Assembly (NCBI GenBank): GCA_013297865.1
Contig: JAAFIP010000002.1
Location: 62,001-126,000 of the forward strand
Length of the DNA: 64,000 nt
Direction: 5' to 3'
Source of the DNA: Polaromonas sp.
GTDB lineage: Bacteria > Pseudomonadota > Gammaproteobacteria > Burkholderiales > Burkholderiaceae_C
The translations under genes and the position numbers were made by a program. Position 1 is the first letter of the stretch. Each line of letters begins with the position of its first letter. The notes under the pieces are model-generated. The model was not told the origin of the DNA. It searched no databases and worked only from the letters and a program-made list of their open reading frames with translations. Positions 16,917 to 61,758 of this stretch are shown piece by piece.

Positions 16917-18209
16917 ATGCAAGCCCCTTATTTGAGCAGTTGGTTTCGCTTTGCAGGTAGAAAAATGCTACTTTTGCAAGGACCTCACGGACCATTTTTC
17001 CAGCGTGTTGCTCACGAGTTACGGGCAGCGGGAGCAAGCGCGGTTTACAAAATTAATTTCAATGGCGGCGATATGCTTTACTACCCTCAAGATGCAGTTG
17101 CATTTAGAGGTAGTCTAAGTGAATGGCCTGCGTTTTTGGCTGATTTTGTGAAAAGCCACGCCATAGATTGTGTGATGGTGTTTGGTGACTGCAGGCCTGT
17201 GCATAGCCTGGCCAAACAAGTTGCGCAGAGCTTGGGTGTCAAGTACTGGGTGTTTGAAGAAGGGTATGTGCGCCCAAACTATATTACGCTTGAGCAACAC
17301 GGGGTTAATGGCTATTCGACACTTCCAAGGAGCAGACAGACTTATGACAACTGGAGTGATGCAGAGCTACAAGCTGAACAGGATGTGCCCGGCAGCTTCG
17401 GTGCAGCTGCCAAATATGCGATGGGATATTTCACTGCATCTGCTGTCTTTTGGCCACTGTTCTGGCGATACAAGCATCATCGTGACCTTACCATACTAGA
17501 TGGTTTGCGTTGGGTCAGGTCGTATTGGCGAAAACTGAGGTATAGAGCCAAAGAGGCTCAAAGCTTGGTGGACTTAAAGCCTGCAGGCCAGCAAGACTTT
17601 TTTCTGGTGGTGTTGCAGGTGGCTACCGATGCGCAGGTTGCTGTGCATTCTCCCTTCGAGTCTATAGAGCAATTCATCGCAGATACCGTGCATTCATTTG
17701 CCCAGTTTTCTCAAGCAGAGCACTCGCGCAAAGATATACTTTTGATAAAACACCATCCAATGGACAGGGGCTATACGGATTACGCCAATTTGATTCAGGG
17801 TCTAGCTCAAGCACACGGCCTGCAAAGCCGAATACGTTATATCCATGATCAACATTTGCCTACTTTGCTTGCTAGCGCCAAAGGCGTTGTCACCATCAAC
17901 AGTACGGTAGGCTTAACAGCAATCTATCATGGAGCACCAACCATAGCACTGGGGACTGCTTTGTACAACATGCAAGGATTAACTTGCCAGGATCCATTAA
18001 GCGAGTTCTGGAAAAGTCCGGCGCACTACAAGCCTGATGCACAGCTGCATGGTAAATTTCGCAACTATATTACTTTGCATACGCAAATTAACGGTAATTT
18101 CTATGTGCCACTTCCCGGCACGAATCCCAAAAGCTTGCCATGGAAATCAGAAACTTCTGTGGCTCCGGGGCTTATGCGAGATCAGTCGATTTTGCTGAAC
18201 AAGCAGTAG
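16917..18209 (+). CDS. kpsS: capsular polysaccharide export/linker protein KpsS-like (beta-Kdo transferase)
   Basis: LLLQGPHGPFFQRVAHELRAAGASAVYKINFNGGD; FGDCRPVH; VFEEGYVRPNYITLE. Confidence 0.88.
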   Translation: MQAPYLSSWFRFAGRKMLLLQGPHGPFFQRVAHELRAAGASAVYKINFNGGDMLYYPQDAVAFRGSLSEWPAFLADFVKSHAIDCVMVFGDCRPVHSLAKQVAQSLGVKYWVFEEGYVRPNYITLEQHGVNGYSTLPRSRQTYDNWSDAELQAEQDVPGSFGAAAKYAMGYFTASAVFWPLFWRYKHHRDLTILDGLRWVRSYWRKLRYRAKEAQSLVDLKPAGQQDFFLVVLQVATDAQVAVHSPFESIEQFIADTVHSFAQFSQAEHSRKDILLIKHHPMDRGYTDYANLIQGLAQAHGLQSRIRYIHDQHLPTLLASAKGVVTINSTVGLTAIYHGAPTIALGTALYNMQGLTCQDPLSEFWKSPAHYKPDAQLHGKFRNYITLHTQINGNFYVPLPGTNPKSLPWKSETSVAPGLMRDQSILLNKQ

Positions 18210-18210
18210 A

Positions 18211-20493
18211 GTGAATCCGCAGGTAGTTATTGATCTTACGCGGCTGGTTGGTCGCTATATTGCTGGCAAAAAACCTACCGGCGTGGATCGCGTTAGCTTG
18301 GCTTATGCCGATCACTACGGCACACATGCACGCGCAATGATGCGTTGGCGTGGCCGTAGCGGCATATTTTCCCAGGCAATCTCTCAAAAGCTTTTTGCAT
18401 TTTTAAACAGATGGGACGGAGCAAATAAACGCTCGCTCTACTTGTTGATCATACAAGGCATATGGTCATGCATATGGCGTGGGGATGGCAATAACGCTTT
18501 TTTGCTGCATACTGGACACAACGACATCGAATCGAACGCATTTTGGCGCAATATCCGTTGGCATAGACTGAGACCAGTGTTTTTTATCCATGACCTGATC
18601 CCGCTATCTCATCCGCAGTATTGTCGTCAAGGTGAGCCACTTCGCCATCAGCAACGCGTGAAAAAAATGTTGGAAGGAGTGGCAGTTATTGCCAATTCTG
18701 CCTCTACATTTTCAGCGCTTCAAAAATATGCTGACTCCCAGCAATGCGCTATCCCAGCGCATTGCGTAGCCATGCTGGCGCCAGCTGCAGCATTGACAAA
18801 CACTGTCACGTCTCCATTGGAAAAGACAAAACCGTCCGGTCGATCAATCAACCTAGCTTCCATAGATTTTGATCACTATACACAGCCATATTTTGTGGCT
18901 GTAGGCACTATTGAACCACGTAAAAACTATGGATTGTTACTGGAAATTTGGAAGCAACTATTAAGCGAGACTCAGGATGGGATTGTTCCGCATTTGATAG
19001 TCATAGGTCAATCTGGATGGGATTGTGAAGACATTGAGGCGCAGCTCAATGATGCAAAGACTTTTCAGCATCACATACATTGGATCACGCAGTGCGATGA
19101 CCAGGAAATGGTATTTTGGCTTAAAGGTGCTATGGCCTTGTTGTTCCCAAGCTTTGTAGAAGGTTTTGGCATGCCCTTAGCAGAGGCGTTGGCATTACAG
19201 ACTCCAGTTATAGCCAGCGATCTTGATGTTTTTAAAGAGTTTGCGAGCGATGTACCGCTCTACTTACCGCCGAACAATGCGCAAGATTGGCGCGAGGCGA
19301 TCAAGGCTTTTATCGACTTGCAAAATCCTCTGCGTAAAGATCAATTGAAGCGAATGGAGTATCTGCAACTTCCGACGTGGGTGACGCACTTCGAAAAAGT
19401 GGACGCCTTACTGGAAAGCCTGTCTTCCTCTGAAGATATAAATGCCGTGCAGCGTATTAAAACCATTGCATCCGCTATGCCTAGCAACACGCAAGCAGCT
19501 TACAGCAATTTTTCTGCCAGAAAAAGGAAGATACTGCATCGCTATTTATCTAGCCTGGGACAGACTAAATCCGGTTTTCAGTGGATTTGGGGAGCGCAGA
19601 CTCATCCGTCAACCGAAACAGTTACGGTGCAGGTGGAGGACGGATTCATACGCTCGGTAGGTTTGGGCGCTGATTTGGCTCAACCCATCTCGTGGGTATT
19701 TGACACAAGAGGTGTGTATTTTGATGCCAGGCAAGCTAGTGATCTAGAGTTGCTCTTGGAGCGAGCAGAGTATTCGCCAGAGCAATTGCTGCGAGCAGCA
19801 AATTTGCGTGAAAAACTGATCCGACAAGGACTCACGAAATATAACCTTCAAAGTTCTTTATGGAAAAGACCGGTAGAAAATCGGCACGTCGTTTTAGTCG
19901 CTGGTCAAGTCGAGACTGACGCTTCGATAAACTTGGGCGCTGGTGCGATCCGCACAAATCTCCAGTTGCTGCAACAGGTTCGCAGCAACCGTCCCAGTAG
20001 TTATATTGTGTATAAACCACATCCTGATGTGGTGGCTGGTTTGCGCTCAGGTGGATCTATTAACTTGCATCATATAGGTCAACTTGTCGATGAAGTAGTT
20101 GAGTCAGCTGACATGGCGCAATTGTTGACCGAAGTGGATGAAGTGCATGTCATTACGTCTTTGACAGGATTTGAGGCCCTTTTGCGTGGCAAGCCCGTTA
20201 CGGTGTACGGTGCACCGTTTTATGCAGGCTGGGGTTTATGTGAAGAACCTAACCTGCCAGATTCATTGCGAAAACGCAGGACGCGCCGCTTGAATATAGA
20301 CCAGCTGGTTGCTGCGGCGTTGATCGACTATCCGCTATATATACATCCCCAATGGGATATCTTAATTACGCCTGAAAAAGCTATAGATATTATAGCAATC
20401 CAACGCTCTCGCTTACAGCCAAAGTCAAGGCTGTACGATAAATGGAAACGACATCTGCTTGGCGCTTGGGCTAAGTTTCAAGGCCGATATTGA
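18211..20493 (+). CDS. hybrid GT4 glycosyltransferase + KpsC-type C-terminal module
   Basis: N-term FVAVGTIEPRKNYGLLLEIWK, SFVEGFGMPLAEAL (GT4); C-term VEDGFIRSVGLGADL...VYKPHPDV...EVHVITSLTGFEALLRGKPVTVYGAPFYAGWGL (KpsC); GTG start. Confidence 0.85.
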   Translation: MNPQVVIDLTRLVGRYIAGKKPTGVDRVSLAYADHYGTHARAMMRWRGRSGIFSQAISQKLFAFLNRWDGANKRSLYLLIIQGIWSCIWRGDGNNAFLLHTGHNDIESNAFWRNIRWHRLRPVFFIHDLIPLSHPQYCRQGEPLRHQQRVKKMLEGVAVIANSASTFSALQKYADSQQCAIPAHCVAMLAPAAALTNTVTSPLEKTKPSGRSINLASIDFDHYTQPYFVAVGTIEPRKNYGLLLEIWKQLLSETQDGIVPHLIVIGQSGWDCEDIEAQLNDAKTFQHHIHWITQCDDQEMVFWLKGAMALLFPSFVEGFGMPLAEALALQTPVIASDLDVFKEFASDVPLYLPPNNAQDWREAIKAFIDLQNPLRKDQLKRMEYLQLPTWVTHFEKVDALLESLSSSEDINAVQRIKTIASAMPSNTQAAYSNFSARKRKILHRYLSSLGQTKSGFQWIWGAQTHPSTETVTVQVEDGFIRSVGLGADLAQPISWVFDTRGVYFDARQASDLELLLERAEYSPEQLLRAANLREKLIRQGLTKYNLQSSLWKRPVENRHVVLVAGQVETDASINLGAGAIRTNLQLLQQVRSNRPSSYIVYKPHPDVVAGLRSGGSINLHHIGQLVDEVVESADMAQLLTEVDEVHVITSLTGFEALLRGKPVTVYGAPFYAGWGLCEEPNLPDSLRKRRTRRLNIDQLVAAALIDYPLYIHPQWDILITPEKAIDIIAIQRSRLQPKSRLYDKWKRHLLGAWAKFQGRY

Positions 20494-26220: not shown

Positions 26221-27228
26221 TTGAATATCCTGATTGTCAAGCTGTCTTCCCTGGGTGATGTGGTGCATACCATGCCAGCAGTGCAAGACATAGTGCGGGC
26301 GCTGCCCCAGGCACAGATTGATTGGGTTGTTGAGCCGGGCTTCGCTTCTCTGGTACAGCGCTGTCAAGGTGTGCGCCGCGTGATTCCCTGTGCACTGCGG
26401 GCCTGGCGCGCAAGCTGGTGGCGTGCGGACACGCGTGCGTCCTGGCGCGCGTTCCGGGCAGATTTGTCCCGGGTGCAGTATGACGCAGTGATCGACTGCC
26501 AGGGGCTGACCAAATCCGCCATCGTGGCGCGCTGTGCGCAGCTGTCTGCCAGTGGAAAGCGGTATGCCTTGGGTAACCGTACTGCAGGCTCGGGCTACGA
26601 AGCGCCCACGCGCTGGCTGGCAGATGTAGCGATCACACTGCCCACGCAGGTGCATGCAGTGCAGCGCTCGCGTCTGCTGTGCGCGCAGGCCCTAGGCTAT
26701 GCGCTGACCAATAATGTATGGCATTTTGGGCTGCCAGCCCAATCAAATATCGCGGGAGCAGCTACTAAAACTGTAGCATTTATCCATGGTACATCACGTC
26801 CAGACAAATGCTGGAATGAATCCCATTGGGTGCAGCTGGGCCATCTGCTACTGGCCCAGGGCTTTGCAGTCGCCTTGCTCCATGGTAGCGATGAAGAGGA
26901 GCTGCGCAGCAAGCGTATCGCCCAGGCGCTCGGTGCGCAGGCACAGGTGTGGCCCCGCATGCCACTGGATGCGTTGACCGACAAACTGGCACAGTGCGCG
27001 GGAGCTATCGGGGTGGACAGTGGTTTGAGCCATATTGCAGTAGCCTTGGACATACCCCATGTGCAGCTGTACAACTTTGACACGGCTTGGCGCACCGGGC
27101 CAGTAGGCTTGACGCGCCAAGTCAGCGTGTATGCGGCGCCGCAGCCCAGCGTAGAGCAGGTATGGCAAGCCTGGCAGCAGGTCAGCAGCACCGGGCAGCC
27201 TGCGCGCAGCACCTCGATGGCAGCCTAG
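26221..27228 (+). CDS. waaC: lipopolysaccharide heptosyltransferase I
   Basis: NILIVKLSSLGDVVHTMPAVQDI; YDAVIDCQGLTKSA; GVDSGLSHIAVAL; TTG start. Contains repeat copy A. Confidence 0.93.
   Translation: MNILIVKLSSLGDVVHTMPAVQDIVRALPQAQIDWVVEPGFASLVQRCQGVRRVIPCALRAWRASWWRADTRASWRAFRADLSRVQYDAVIDCQGLTKSAIVARCAQLSASGKRYALGNRTAGSGYEAPTRWLADVAITLPTQVHAVQRSRLLCAQALGYALTNNVWHFGLPAQSNIAGAATKTVAFIHGTSRPDKCWNESHWVQLGHLLLAQGFAVALLHGSDEEELRSKRIAQALGAQAQVWPRMPLDALTDKLAQCAGAIGVDSGLSHIAVALDIPHVQLYNFDTAWRTGPVGLTRQVSVYAAPQPSVEQVWQAWQQVSSTGQPARSTSMAA
26728..26782 (-). repeat. interspersed repeat copy A (inside waaC)
   Basis: gggctgccagcccaatcaaatatcgcgggagcagctactaaaactgtagcatttat; near-identical to copy F. 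Confidence 0.9.
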
Positions 27229-27230
27229 CC

Positions 27231-28553
27231 ATGCAAAAACTCGCCAGAGCCCTCTACAGCGCGGCGCTTTGGACCGTGCAGCCGCTGCTCAGGCGCAAGC
27301 TTGCCCAACGGGCCAAGTCGGAACCCCTGTATGGAGAGCATTTGCCCGAGCGCTTTGGGTATTACAGTGCACCCGCACCCCAGGCGCTGGTGTGGATACA
27401 TGCGGTGTCCCTGGGCGAAACACGTGCTGCTGCGGTACTGATAGAGCAGCTGCGTGCTGCCGTGCCAGGCATCTGTCTGCTGCTGACCCACGGTACGGCC
27501 ACGGGGCGCGCCGAAGGGGCAAAGCTGCTGCGCAATGGCGATTTGCAAGCATGGCTGCCATGGGATACGCCAGGGGCCGTGACGCGATTTTTTGACCATT
27601 TCCAGCTGCGCCTGGGCATCATCATGGAAACTGAGCTATGGCCCAATCTGTGCATGGCTGCCAGCAGCCGTGCTGTGCCATTGGTGCTGGCCAATGCCCG
27701 GCTCAATGAAAAATCCATGCGCAAGGCCCAGCGCCTCGCTTGGTTGGCGCGGCCTGCGTACCGCACACTGAGCCAGGTTTGGGCGCAGACGCAAGAGGAT
27801 GCGCAGCGCCTGGAGGCGGTGGGTGCGCAGCGGGTCAGCGTGCTTGGCAATCTGAAATACGACGCCACGCTGGCCCAGCCCTTGCTGCTGCAGGGCCGTC
27901 AATGGCGCAGCCAACTGCATAGCCCGGTCATTTTGCTGGCAAGCACGCGTGAAGGCGAAGAAGTGCTTTTTTTACAACAAATTCAGGCGCTAGCCCAATC
28001 AAATATCGCGGGAGCAGCTATAAATAACGTAGCGGATAGTTCTGTAAAACCGGCTGTGCAGTGGTTGATTGTGCCGCGACATCCGCAGCGGTTTGACGAA
28101 GTAGCGCAGATGATCACCCATGCAGGCCTGACGCTATCGCGCCGCTCCCAGTGGACAGATGCACCGCAGGCAGCAGATGTGTGGCTGGGTGATTCTCTGG
28201 CCGAGATGGCGCTGTATTACAGCTTGGCTGATGTGGCTCTTCTGGGTGGTAGTTTCGCCCCCCTGGGTGGGCAGAACCTGATTGAAGCGATTGCTGCGGC
28301 CTGCCCGGTGGTGATGGGGCCGCACACTTTCAATTTTGCAGATGCTGCGCAGACTGCAATAGAACAACATGCCGCTGTACGGGTGCCAGATGTTGCGCAG
28401 GGTCTGCAGATTGCCATGCACCTGGCTGCAGATAAGGCGCAGTCAGAGGCGATGCGCGCTGCAGGGGTGCGCTGGCTTAGCAGCTCGCGCGGTGCAGCAC
28501 AGCGCATGGCGCACCGCGTTGTGCAGCTGCTGGCTAAGCCGTCTGGGCATTAG
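27231..28553 (+). CDS. waaA: 3-deoxy-D-manno-octulosonic acid (Kdo) transferase
   Basis: [61 protein letters not shown]; start trimmed to [10 protein letters not shown]. Confidence 0.94.
27986..28036 (-). repeat. interspersed repeat copy B (inside waaA)
   Basis: ggcgctagcccaatcaaatatcgcgggagcagctataaataacgtagc; shares an identical 29-nt core with copy A. Confidence 0.88.
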
Positions 28554-38342: not shown

Positions 38343-38966
38343 TCAGGGTTTTTTGGCAGGGGCAGAGGAGGGCGCGGGTGCAGGCGCAGGCGCTGGGGCA
38401 CCATTCGGAGCAGGCGTGCCGGTGATCTTGGCCGCTGTCGCATCGAAAGCCTTACCGCGCGACTCCACATCAGCGCGTGTGCCGTCGACGATGGCTTTGA
38501 CATACACATTGCCCAGCTCAGGCGCTGTGCTCTGGTATTTCTTGTACGCAGGGGCTTCCATCAGGGCGGCCAGCTGCTTGAGCTCGTCTTCGCTGAAACG
38601 CTCGGTGTAAGCCGTCACCAGGGCATCGCTGCGCACTTTGGCCGCCTGTGCTGTCACGGCCTTGAGTGTGGCGTCGTTGAATTTTTTCAGTTCCGCATCC
38701 AGTGCGGTCACCGCACTTTGCCGCTTGGCCTCGGGCATTGCGGCTACGCGGTCGCTCCAGTTGCCAATCAACTGCTGCGTGGCAGAGCCCGCAATCTGCT
38801 CAAGCAGGCGGTCCATTTCAGGGCCTGCCTGCGCAGCCACCACGCGCGCTGCCAGGGTGCGCTTGGCATCGGTGGTTTGGGCATGAATGGGGCCACTAGC
38901 CCAATAGAATATCGCGGCGGCAGCTACGATTTTAGTAGCAAATTTGATGAATTGAAATGATGTCAT
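38343..38966 (-). CDS. secreted DUF2059-like protein
   Basis: Signal peptide MTSFQFIKFATKIVAAAAIFYWASGPIHA; ALVTAYTERFSEDELKQLAALMEAPAYKKY. Confidence 0.75.
   Translation of the reverse strand: MTSFQFIKFATKIVAAAAIFYWASGPIHAQTTDAKRTLAARVVAAQAGPEMDRLLEQIAGSATQQLIGNWSDRVAAMPEAKRQSAVTALDAELKKFNDATLKAVTAQAAKVRSDALVTAYTERFSEDELKQLAALMEAPAYKKYQSTAPELGNVYVKAIVDGTRADVESRGKAFDATAAKITGTPAPNGAPAPAPAPAPSSAPAKKP
38889..38947 (-). repeat. interspersed repeat copy C (encodes signal-peptide core of DUF2059 gene)
   Basis: gggccactagcccaatagaatatcgcggcggcagctacgattttagtagc. Confidence 0.88.
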
Positions 38967-43689: not shown

Positions 43690-43745
43690 AATACTATTAT
43701 TTTGATAGCTGCTCCCGCGATATTCTATTGGCCTGGAGCCCCAAA
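43690..43745 (+). repeat. interspersed repeat copy D (ubiG-gph intergenic)
   Basis: aatactattattttgatagctgctcccgcgatattctattggcctggagcccc. Confidence 0.9.
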
Positions 43746-43778
43746 ATACTCAAATAAACACACCAATATCTGACCACC

Positions 43779-44477: not shown

Positions 44478-45035
44478 ATGCGGATGCACGCTTTGCTTCG
44501 CGCTGTTGTCATCGCCGCAGGCCTGAGCGCCTGTGTGATGCACACCGCTGCCGTGGCCTGCTTTGACGAAAAAAAGTTAGCGCACACTATTGAAAATTTG
44601 CCTGCAGGTGCAGTGTTGTACGTGTGGTCGCCCCGCATGGTGCTGTCGGCCCAGCATGCGGCCAGCGCGCAGCGGCAGGCGGCCGCGCAGGGCCTGGCTT
44701 TTATCGCGTTGCACGATGCTGGCGTACCTGAGGCCGAGATCAAAGCGGCGCTGTCAGCACTGGCCGGCTCAGGCCATGCACTGCACAGCAGCAGTGCGCA
44801 GGTGCTGGCAGGCAGCCAAGGCCTGTGCGCCCGCAGCCTGCTGGAGCGCGACGCGCTGCGCCACTTTCCCACCGCCTTCGTGCTGCACAGCGGCCAGGTG
44901 CACCGCCACGCCATCATCGGGGCCATGCCAGAGGCGGCCTGGGCGCACAGCATTGCGCAGCGCCTGCCCCAGCGTGGCGCGCAGGCCTCTGCGCAAGCTG
45001 CCGCGCGCCTGCCAGTAGCCAGAGTGCAGCCATGA
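44478..45035 (+). CDS. secreted hypothetical protein
   Basis: Signal-peptide-like N-terminus MHALLRAVVIAAGLSACVMHTAAVA; 4-bp overlap with next gene. Confidence 0.6.
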   Translation: MRMHALLRAVVIAAGLSACVMHTAAVACFDEKKLAHTIENLPAGAVLYVWSPRMVLSAQHAASAQRQAAAQGLAFIALHDAGVPEAEIKAALSALAGSGHALHSSSAQVLAGSQGLCARSLLERDALRHFPTAFVLHSGQVHRHAIIGAMPEAAWAHSIAQRLPQRGAQASAQAAARLPVARVQP

Positions 45036-46282
45036 CTATCCATCGTAGCGCTATATTTTTAATAGCTGCTCCCGCTATATTTCATTGGGCTGCAGCCCAA
45101 AACGTCTCTCAAAACATGCTGCCGCAGCAGTGTATTCCTGCCAACACCTTCACCGCGCTGTCCCCCGCGCTGGTAGGCCAGCAGACAGACGCTTACGGCA
45201 ACACCAGCGTGGCCTTGGGCAGCTATGAGCGCATCAGCCCGGACGGCCGCTTTGTGCTGCGCAGCTTCTCGGGCGGGCGGCTGGGCGAGGTGAGCCTGGT
45301 GGAGCTCAGCGCCACAGGCCAGGCCGTGGCGGCCTACGACACCCCGCTGTCCAACGAGGCTTTCCCGGTGCAGGGCAGCTGGCGCTATCTGGTCAATGTG
45401 AACGGCGATCACTACAGCTTCAGCAGCATTCTTCGCAACAACAGCCAGCGCAAGCAAAGCCCGGTGTTTCGCGGCGGCATGACCGGTTTTTATGCAGCGG
45501 CCTCCGAGCTGCCTGCCGCAGCCTCTGACAAGCCCGGGCAGGTGCGTATCCGCTCCATGAGCTGGCCCAATGCCAACAGCGACGGCGAGCGCCAGGGCGA
45601 GGGGGCTTTGGTGGCGCGCACCTTGACCATAGACACCGCCAACGGCCGCGTGGTGGCAGACAGCGGCCAAGTGGGTCTGTGCAGAGAACGTGTGCGCGAG
45701 GACGGCCCGTTTTACGCGCTGCCCATGATCAGCGTGGATGGCTTGGAGTTTGCCGCCGTGCCGCAAACCCCCGTCAAAGGCGAGCAGACCATGCGCATCT
45801 TTGCCTTTGGCGCGCAGGGCACGGGCTGCACGCCGCGCGCGGTGTTTGGCTTTTCCAGCGGCAAGACCATTTTTGGCTTTCCCCACGCCGACGCAGGCGC
45901 AGCCGACCTGGCCTACGAATACCGCGCCAATGTCTGGTGGGTCAGCCGCGGCCCTGGCATGCCGCCCGATGGCCTGCGCTTTAACATCGCCCCGTATTAC
46001 GCCAACCCCCGCACCCTGCTGCTGGCCAGCGCCTTCCCCGGCATCACGCGCGACGGCCGGGTGATCTACGGCGCTACCCTCAAAGACTGCCCTGCAGACC
46101 CCAGCAAGCCCTGCACCAACCAGGCAGGCTATGTGATCAGCGACCCCTACCAAAGCAACGCCTACCAGCAGTATCTGCAACAGCCCGGCGCCAGCCCAGC
46201 GGCCCGCAGGCAATGCATCACCCACGCCGACGTGGCCCGCGAACGGGCGGCTTTTGCCAAGCTGCACGGTCTGGCGCCATAG
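45032..46282 (+). CDS. secreted hypothetical protein (~416 aa)
   Basis: Start trimmed to MTIHRSAIFLIAAPAIFHWAAAQ; ATGA overlap with upstream stop. Confidence 0.7.
   Translation: MTIHRSAIFLIAAPAIFHWAAAQNVSQNMLPQQCIPANTFTALSPALVGQQTDAYGNTSVALGSYERISPDGRFVLRSFSGGRLGEVSLVELSATGQAVAAYDTPLSNEAFPVQGSWRYLVNVNGDHYSFSSILRNNSQRKQSPVFRGGMTGFYAAASELPAAASDKPGQVRIRSMSWPNANSDGERQGEGALVARTLTIDTANGRVVADSGQVGLCRERVREDGPFYALPMISVDGLEFAAVPQTPVKGEQTMRIFAFGAQGTGCTPRAVFGFSSGKTIFGFPHADAGAADLAYEYRANVWWVSRGPGMPPDGLRFNIAPYYANPRTLLLASAFPGITRDGRVIYGATLKDCPADPSKPCTNQAGYVISDPYQSNAYQQYLQQPGASPAARRQCITHADVARERAAFAKLHGLAP
45049..45099 (+). repeat. interspersed repeat copy E (encodes signal peptide of the 45032 gene)
   Basis: cgctatatttttaatagctgctcccgctatatttcattgggctgcagccc. 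Confidence 0.9.
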
Positions 46283-46325: not shown

Positions 46326-46383
46326 GGGCTTCCAGGCCAATAGAATATCGCGGGAGCAGCTATTAAATATATAGCATTTATCA
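46326..46383 (-). repeat. interspersed repeat copy F (intergenic)
   Basis: gggcttccaggccaatagaatatcgcgggagcagctattaaatatatagcatttatcac. Confidence 0.92.
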
Positions 46384-61599: not shown

Positions 61600-61686
61600 G
61601 CAACGCGGGCTTGGGCAAAACAGGCTTGAGCGAGACAGGGGAATAAGCTTTGCAGAAGCTGCTAATGGCTCTCCAAGAGACTGGCA

Positions 61687-61738
61687 GTACTATTAATTTA
61701 ATAGCTGCTCCCGCGACATTCTATTGGTCTGCGGCCCG
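61687..61738 (+). repeat. interspersed repeat copy G (convergent intergenic)
   Basis: gtactattaatttaatagctgctcccgcgacattctattggtctgcggcccg. Confidence 0.9.
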
Positions 61739-61758
61739 ATTTCATTCATAAAAACGGC

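Follow-up and report, generated by a model that had tools for sequence, protein, structure and literature searches.

A window of 64,000 nucleotides, the whole stretch of Polaromonas sp. DNA analysed here (GenBank assembly GCA_013297865.1, contig JAAFIP010000002.1, positions 62,001 to 126,000 of the forward strand), carries several copies of a dispersed repeat of about 66 bp. One of them, copy E, lies at the 5' end of the gene that starts at window position 45032. We consider it highly probable that the export signal of this gene is a repeat-derived putative signal peptide of the Sec pathway, cleaved by signal peptidase I (SPase I), with export and cleavage predicted from the sequence. Three features make up the locus.

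44478 to 45035, plus strand: upstream gene, 185 aa, with a signal-peptide-like N-terminus of its own, overlapping the next gene through an ATGA
45032 to 46282, plus strand: gene for a 416-aa putative exported protein (P0001), from its open reading frame (ORF) and translation and from family and structure comparison
45047 to 45112, plus strand: repeat copy E, the full 66-bp unit in its hydrophobic frame, encoding residues 6–27 (SAIFLIAAPAIFHWAAAQNVSQ), from a profile match

Repeat copy E and the gene at 45032

Translation from 45032 yields a protein of 416 aa beginning MTIHRSAIFLIAAPAIFHWAAAQNVSQNMLPQQC..., in which copy E encodes the whole hydrophobic core and the cleavage context (the h- and c-regions). 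The predicted signal peptide consists of the n-region MTIHR, the h-region SAIFLIAAPAIFHW and the c-region AAA/Q, the slash marking the predicted cleavage. This arrangement, MTIHRSAIFLIAAPAIFHWAAA/Q, satisfies a crude n/h/c rule, by which the n-region must be basic, the h-region hydrophobic and without charge, and the residues at −3 and −1 small; OmpA, MalE and LamB pass this rule and GroEL does not. An earlier note, made on this DNA from the letters alone, had attributed residues SAIFLIAAPAIFHWAAA to the repeat. That attribution stands, but its extent was too short, as information content shows that QNVSQ is repeat-coded too, giving codons 6–27. The same note rightly placed the start codon upstream of the repeat and in overlap with the stop of the preceding gene (ATG at 45032–45034, TGA of the 44478 ORF at 45033–45035); its distance of ~17 bp becomes 15 bp when measured from the full 66-bp unit. 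Copy E lacks the stop that the consensus carries near its 3' end. The next ATG is codon 29, and a protein begun there retains no signal peptide by the crude rule.

Homologues of the 45032 protein were found in genomes of relatives and in two named genomes, including Brachymonas chironomi and Comamonadaceae OH2545; one of the homologues is partial. No repeat element is present at seven homologous loci, and homologues without the repeat do not keep the same N-terminus: similarity to the 45032 protein starts at residues 22–34, at or past the end of its hydrophobic segment. Where the homologue is a separate gene (L002, L008, L009 and L004) its N-terminus is unrelated and not repeat-made, for example MNGTARASRQLAIALALLTAGGLALA in Brachymonas. 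The crude rule recognises a signal peptide in three of these four; the N-terminus of L004 is hydrophobic and just fails it. In L003 and L005 the 45032 domain is fused in frame behind a secreted upstream domain, homologous to the 44478 product, whose signal peptide serves both. In a phylogenetic tree the Polaromonas protein groups with the fused L003 (support 94/94) and the fused L005 falls in another clade. Because fused and split forms are mixed in this way, the repeat at 45032 would either have replaced an older signal peptide or have supplied one to a split-off half.

The 45032 protein has no Pfam or NCBIfam match. Its structure model is beta-rich and propeller-like with moderate confidence (pLDDT 70), and residues 1–30 lie outside the fold with pLDDT <50. 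The best structural neighbours reach TM-scores of ~0.4 or less, and we therefore give the protein no function. Together, 44478–46282 form a two-gene unit of putative secreted proteins without a Pfam match, which appear as one fused protein in two relatives; this protein family has invariant Cys and Trp residues and is predicted to be beta-rich.

The dispersed repeat and predicted repeat-made signal peptides

With the T of TAGCTG as reference point, information content across 162 aligned copies and their flanks puts the conserved unit between −15 and about +51, a length of ~66 bp. A 26-bp core pattern, allowing ≤3 mismatches, has 627 matches in the 3.99 Mb genome and none when reversed. This count is a lower bound, and we estimate ~600–750 copies genome-wide, or ~190 per Mb of a ~4-Mb genome. 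A 66-bp profile found 120 copies in a census sample of 640 kb (16% of the genome, drawn regardless of the position of repeats in genes) and none in a reversed-sequence control; the census also took in targeted stretches. Forty scored copies from the Polaromonas genome reach E < 1e-10, and a 30-bp piece of the repeat gave no chance match in 100 shuffles. Only one of the six consensus frames stays open through 20 codons. It is the hydrophobic one (A-I-x-L-I-A-A-P-A-I-F-Y-W-A-G-G), which ends in small residues, and thus the repeat can run through genes and suits membranes.

Of 150 other genomes of the family, 148 lack the type of repeat found in this genome (TAGCTGCTCCCGC...) and the remaining two have a single match each, in a comparison of one genome per species with no close strain among them. 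A sister type (ATAGCTGCTTGCGC...) of the same layout reaches 534 copies in one genome of the same family, and sister copies from three relatives confirm the 66-bp layout. In the relative G016, four sister copies stand on one strand at a regular spacing of ~165 bp (L182, ~18049–18608) as a tandem cluster.

The repeat has presumably spread by transposition or a copy-paste process and is presumably mobile at present. Its 66-bp unit (−15 to +51) shows no clear terminal inverted repeat. We reject a structured RNA or a palindrome resembling repetitive extragenic palindromic (REP) elements: there is hardly any covariation between paired positions in the seeming stems, and the consensus folds with ~−1 kcal/mol whichever strand is taken. 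The repeat matches no Rfam family, and tmRNA is the only Rfam match in the window. Spread driven by a REP-associated tyrosine transposase (RAYT) is likewise unconvincing. The single Y1_Tnp (RAYT-type) gene (G000:C12:185248-185589, L194) has one repeat copy ~650 bp upstream, which is unremarkable because copy density is high.

The window holds six copies besides copy E, one of them in the signal peptide of a second gene.

38881 to 38940, minus strand: copy in the signal peptide of the gene at 38966, hydrophobic frame (profile)
38343 to 38966, minus strand: this second gene, with a repeat-made predicted signal peptide (MTSFQFIKFATKIVAAAAIFYWASGPIHAQ; profile and crude rule)
26718 to 26778, minus strand: copy inside waaC, in frame, read from the other strand (window repeat search)
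27970 to 28034, minus strand: copy inside waaA, in frame, read from the other strand (window repeat search)
43690 to 43747, plus strand: intergenic copy between ubiG-like and HAD-hydrolase genes (window repeat search)
46326 to 46378, minus strand: intergenic copy just downstream of the 45032 gene (window repeat search)
61684 to 61756, plus strand: intergenic copy (window repeat search)

The waaC and waaA copies, which read ...AQSNIAGAA..., are antisense relative to their genes, and the earlier note was right that the 45032 gene reads the repeat in the opposite direction. The waaC copy fills a variable linker and makes the protein scarcely or not at all longer than E. coli WaaC.

Across the genome, the repeat makes at least 14 predicted signal peptides, that of the 45032 gene and those of 13 unrelated genes, nine in the hydrophobic frame and five from the other strand. 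All 14 pass the crude rule. Besides the two genes in the window they belong to the following proteins.

DsbD, hydrophobic frame: MVKLLRRSLCAALFLIAAPAVFHWAGAQ
DctP, hydrophobic frame: MQFKNTIFLIASIAMFHWAHAQ
Chalcone-isomerase-like protein (Chalcone_3), hydrophobic frame
DUF547 protein, hydrophobic frame: MKRFTIFLIAAAAIFHWAGAAFAQ
Cupredoxin-like protein, hydrophobic frame
Aspartyl protease, hydrophobic frame
Product of the L015 gene, hydrophobic frame
RseB, other strand
Caspase-like C14 protein, other strand
M20 peptidase, other strand: MRKHIPAQWNIAGAAIFLIANLSTSAFAQ
Oligopeptide-binding protein (SBP_bac_5), other strand
SLT-domain protein, other strand

Orthologues of the DUF547 protein and of the aspartyl protease have other signal peptides at the same place and no element there. 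Open frames that cross the repeat in antisense were numerous (e.g., L012–L014) and were dropped by eye and for their weak codon score. About a third of the copies in the 640-kb sample (~40–46 of 120) lie inside ORFs. Six fall within signal peptides where 0.9–1.0 would be expected if intragenic copies were spread evenly over coding sequence (P ~3–5e-4).

Other in-frame copies occupy conserved housekeeping genes for cytoplasmic proteins, including those for DapF (L049:2841-3857), UvrC (L154:13126-15150), a GluQ-like, tRNA-synthetase-like protein (L163:19049-19918) and HisD (L165:1763-3118). The DapF copy brings a net gain of ~19 aa over a solved structure, and the HisD copy sits in an N-terminal stretch ahead of the aligned domain. 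In a KefC-type transporter (L017:983-2857, minus strand) the repeat has displaced one of the protein's own transmembrane helices, for a net lengthening of 7 residues relative to 19 of 20 orthologues. DsbD has a second copy in its C-terminal transmembrane stretch (L010:3781-3847), and this site is occupied in several genera (relatives L098, L101 and L103).

Proposed origin of the putative export signal

We propose that a gene whose product is exported would receive a copy at its 5' end, in the hydrophobic frame and behind the start codon and a basic residue, and that this copy would then serve as a Sec/SPase I signal peptide, displacing the ancestral one. Selection would retain copies in frame chiefly at places that tolerate a hydrophobic or flexible segment. 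That a repeat was exapted as a Sec signal at 45032, as the earlier note had suggested, is supported by the differing N-termini of the homologues and by the 13 further genes with the same arrangement. Several observations weigh on the other side. The n-region at 45032 is weak, with one Arg and one His, and Pro, His and Trp occur within the h-region. There is no clear Shine-Dalgarno sequence 5' of 45032, so translation probably relies on coupling through the ATGA overlap. Intragenic copies also occur in cytoplasmic proteins (DapF, UvrC, HisD and WaaA), which makes signal peptides only one class of tolerated site. The gene calls are our own and gene starts are approximate, with start codons picked by eye in several genes, and our home-made signal-peptide rule over-predicts (30% of genes), for which reason the expected count given above is conservative.

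Translation could instead begin at the ATG of codon 29 (MLPQQC...), leaving the repeat merely upstream and the open frame over it accidental. Such a frame is cheap, since the consensus hydrophobic frame is open for 20 codons unaided, and the missing Shine-Dalgarno at 45032 fits this reading as well. We nevertheless regard a downstream start, which had been considered from the outset, as very unlikely. It would leave the protein without an export signal, whereas a signal is predicted in three of the four split homologues (L004, hydrophobic, fails the rule) and the fused homologues would be secreted by means of the signal peptide of their upstream domain. The ATGA overlap fits a start at 45032, copy E avoids the consensus stop near its 3' end, and thirteen other genes show the same arrangement. 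Even less probable, in our judgement, is that native signal peptides converged on the repeat, or that the repeat family was born from signal-peptide coding sequence such as that of dsbD, even though the DsbD of other genera also has a signal peptide of the LIAA.A....AQ kind. The match is one of DNA and extends over all 66 bp, the non-hydrophobic tail included; in orthologues of the 45032, DUF547 and aspartyl-protease genes the element is missing and the signal peptide is of unrelated sequence. The DsbD copies of relatives match the repeat type of their own genomes, just as three sites in the Polaromonas genome carry its own type, and one locus therefore cannot be the simple source of all copies; birth from dsbD was set aside on these grounds, the DNA of the orthologues matching the sister repeats of their own genomes. 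A more serious contender, to which we give somewhat less than even weight, is neutral hitch-hiking: the element inserts everywhere, signal peptides are highly sequence-tolerant, and no positive selection favours a repeat-derived signal. The many intragenic copies in loops of cytoplasmic enzymes (net +19 aa in DapF, the linker in WaaC) and the occurrence of the element in several frames speak for it. Against it, the repeat gives nearly the whole h- and c-region at 45032, where a loss of hydrophobicity should abolish export, which amounts to functional use. Hitch-hiking is compatible with a repeat-derived signal peptide as regards the role of the sequence and differs only on why the sequence is there.

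Signal-peptide sites in related genomes bear on how the repeat types turn over. The DsbD signal-peptide site bears the sister element in at least eight other genera (E 1e-9 to 8e-4). In G016, the orthologue of the 38966 product (41% identity) likewise has an element-made predicted signal peptide of the sister type, and the sister element forms predicted signal peptides in at least three genes of that genome besides DsbD. The copies of relatives at the two signal-peptide sites score 22–50 bits under the sister model and no more than 14 under the Polaromonas model. Three sites in the Polaromonas genome score 53, 47 and 40 bits with its own-type model versus 18, 12 and 10 with the sister model, the first two values of each set being those of the DsbD and 38966 signal peptides; the transmembrane copy of DsbD is also of the own type. 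The DsbD and 38966 sites may thus have been re-invaded, or their resident copies may have been converted to the current type. We tentatively suggest, with confidence short of even, that a family-wide element acts as a self-homogenising signal-peptide cassette, in which a drifting repeat type would overwrite orthologous sites by recombination or re-insertion and the signal peptides of unrelated proteins would evolve in concert. This reading rests on few loci.

Known repeat systems and significance

Short repeats that enter genes have been described before. Rickettsia palindromic elements (RPE; Ogata et al. 2000, reviewed in PMC2229807) are short and dispersed and occur in intergenic DNA as well as in frame within many genes. 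The Polaromonas repeat resembles them as a dispersed short repeat in frame within many conserved genes, its encoded peptide kept in the product. It differs in residing in a 4-Mb betaproteobacterial genome at ~190 copies per Mb, in having a hydrophobic frame used repeatedly for predicted signal peptides, and in lacking the long RPE stem-loop with terminal inverted repeats (fold ~−1 kcal/mol, stems weakly paired). REP elements, the high-copy, short GTAG and CGTC palindromic repeats, also have some units inside coding genes (PMC3733652), and one Y1_Tnp (RAYT-type) gene is present here. However, the strong GTAG/CGTC-tagged hairpin of REPs and their composite elements, BIMEs, is lacking, and the sole RAYT has a single neighbouring copy, ~650 bp to one side. 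The repeat is not classed as RPE or REP because their defining strong palindrome is not found in it. The main text of that REP survey (PMC3733652) does not mention Acidovorax, Polaromonas, Delftia or Comamonas, and we found no description of this repeat sequence or of Comamonadaceae repeats in the literature covered, subscription journals being outside its scope.

The closest precedent concerns the RU-2/YPAL of Yersinia and the enterobacterial RU-1f, miniature inverted-repeat transposable elements (MITEs; Delihas 2007; PMC2759123), where a MITE forms part of the signal peptide of YPO1552. There, as here, homologues have unrelated signal sequences. The Yersinia report has one main case, a small putative exported protein, and the MITE gives part of the signal only, whereas this genome has at least 14 cases, most in recognised exported families. 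Copy E gives nearly the whole h- and c-region, and a sister element occupies the same site in related genera. New in comparison are how many predicted signal peptides one element accounts for, the part that recognised exported families have in this, and what looks like concerted turnover.

Because signal peptides are short and change quickly, the origin of new ones is an open question. With one repeat providing the predicted export signal of at least 14 proteins that are unrelated to one another, all in a single genome, this Polaromonas offers a natural experiment with many replicates. The system can be used to study the path from non-coding repeat to export signal, and to test whether repeats can make signal peptides change in concert.
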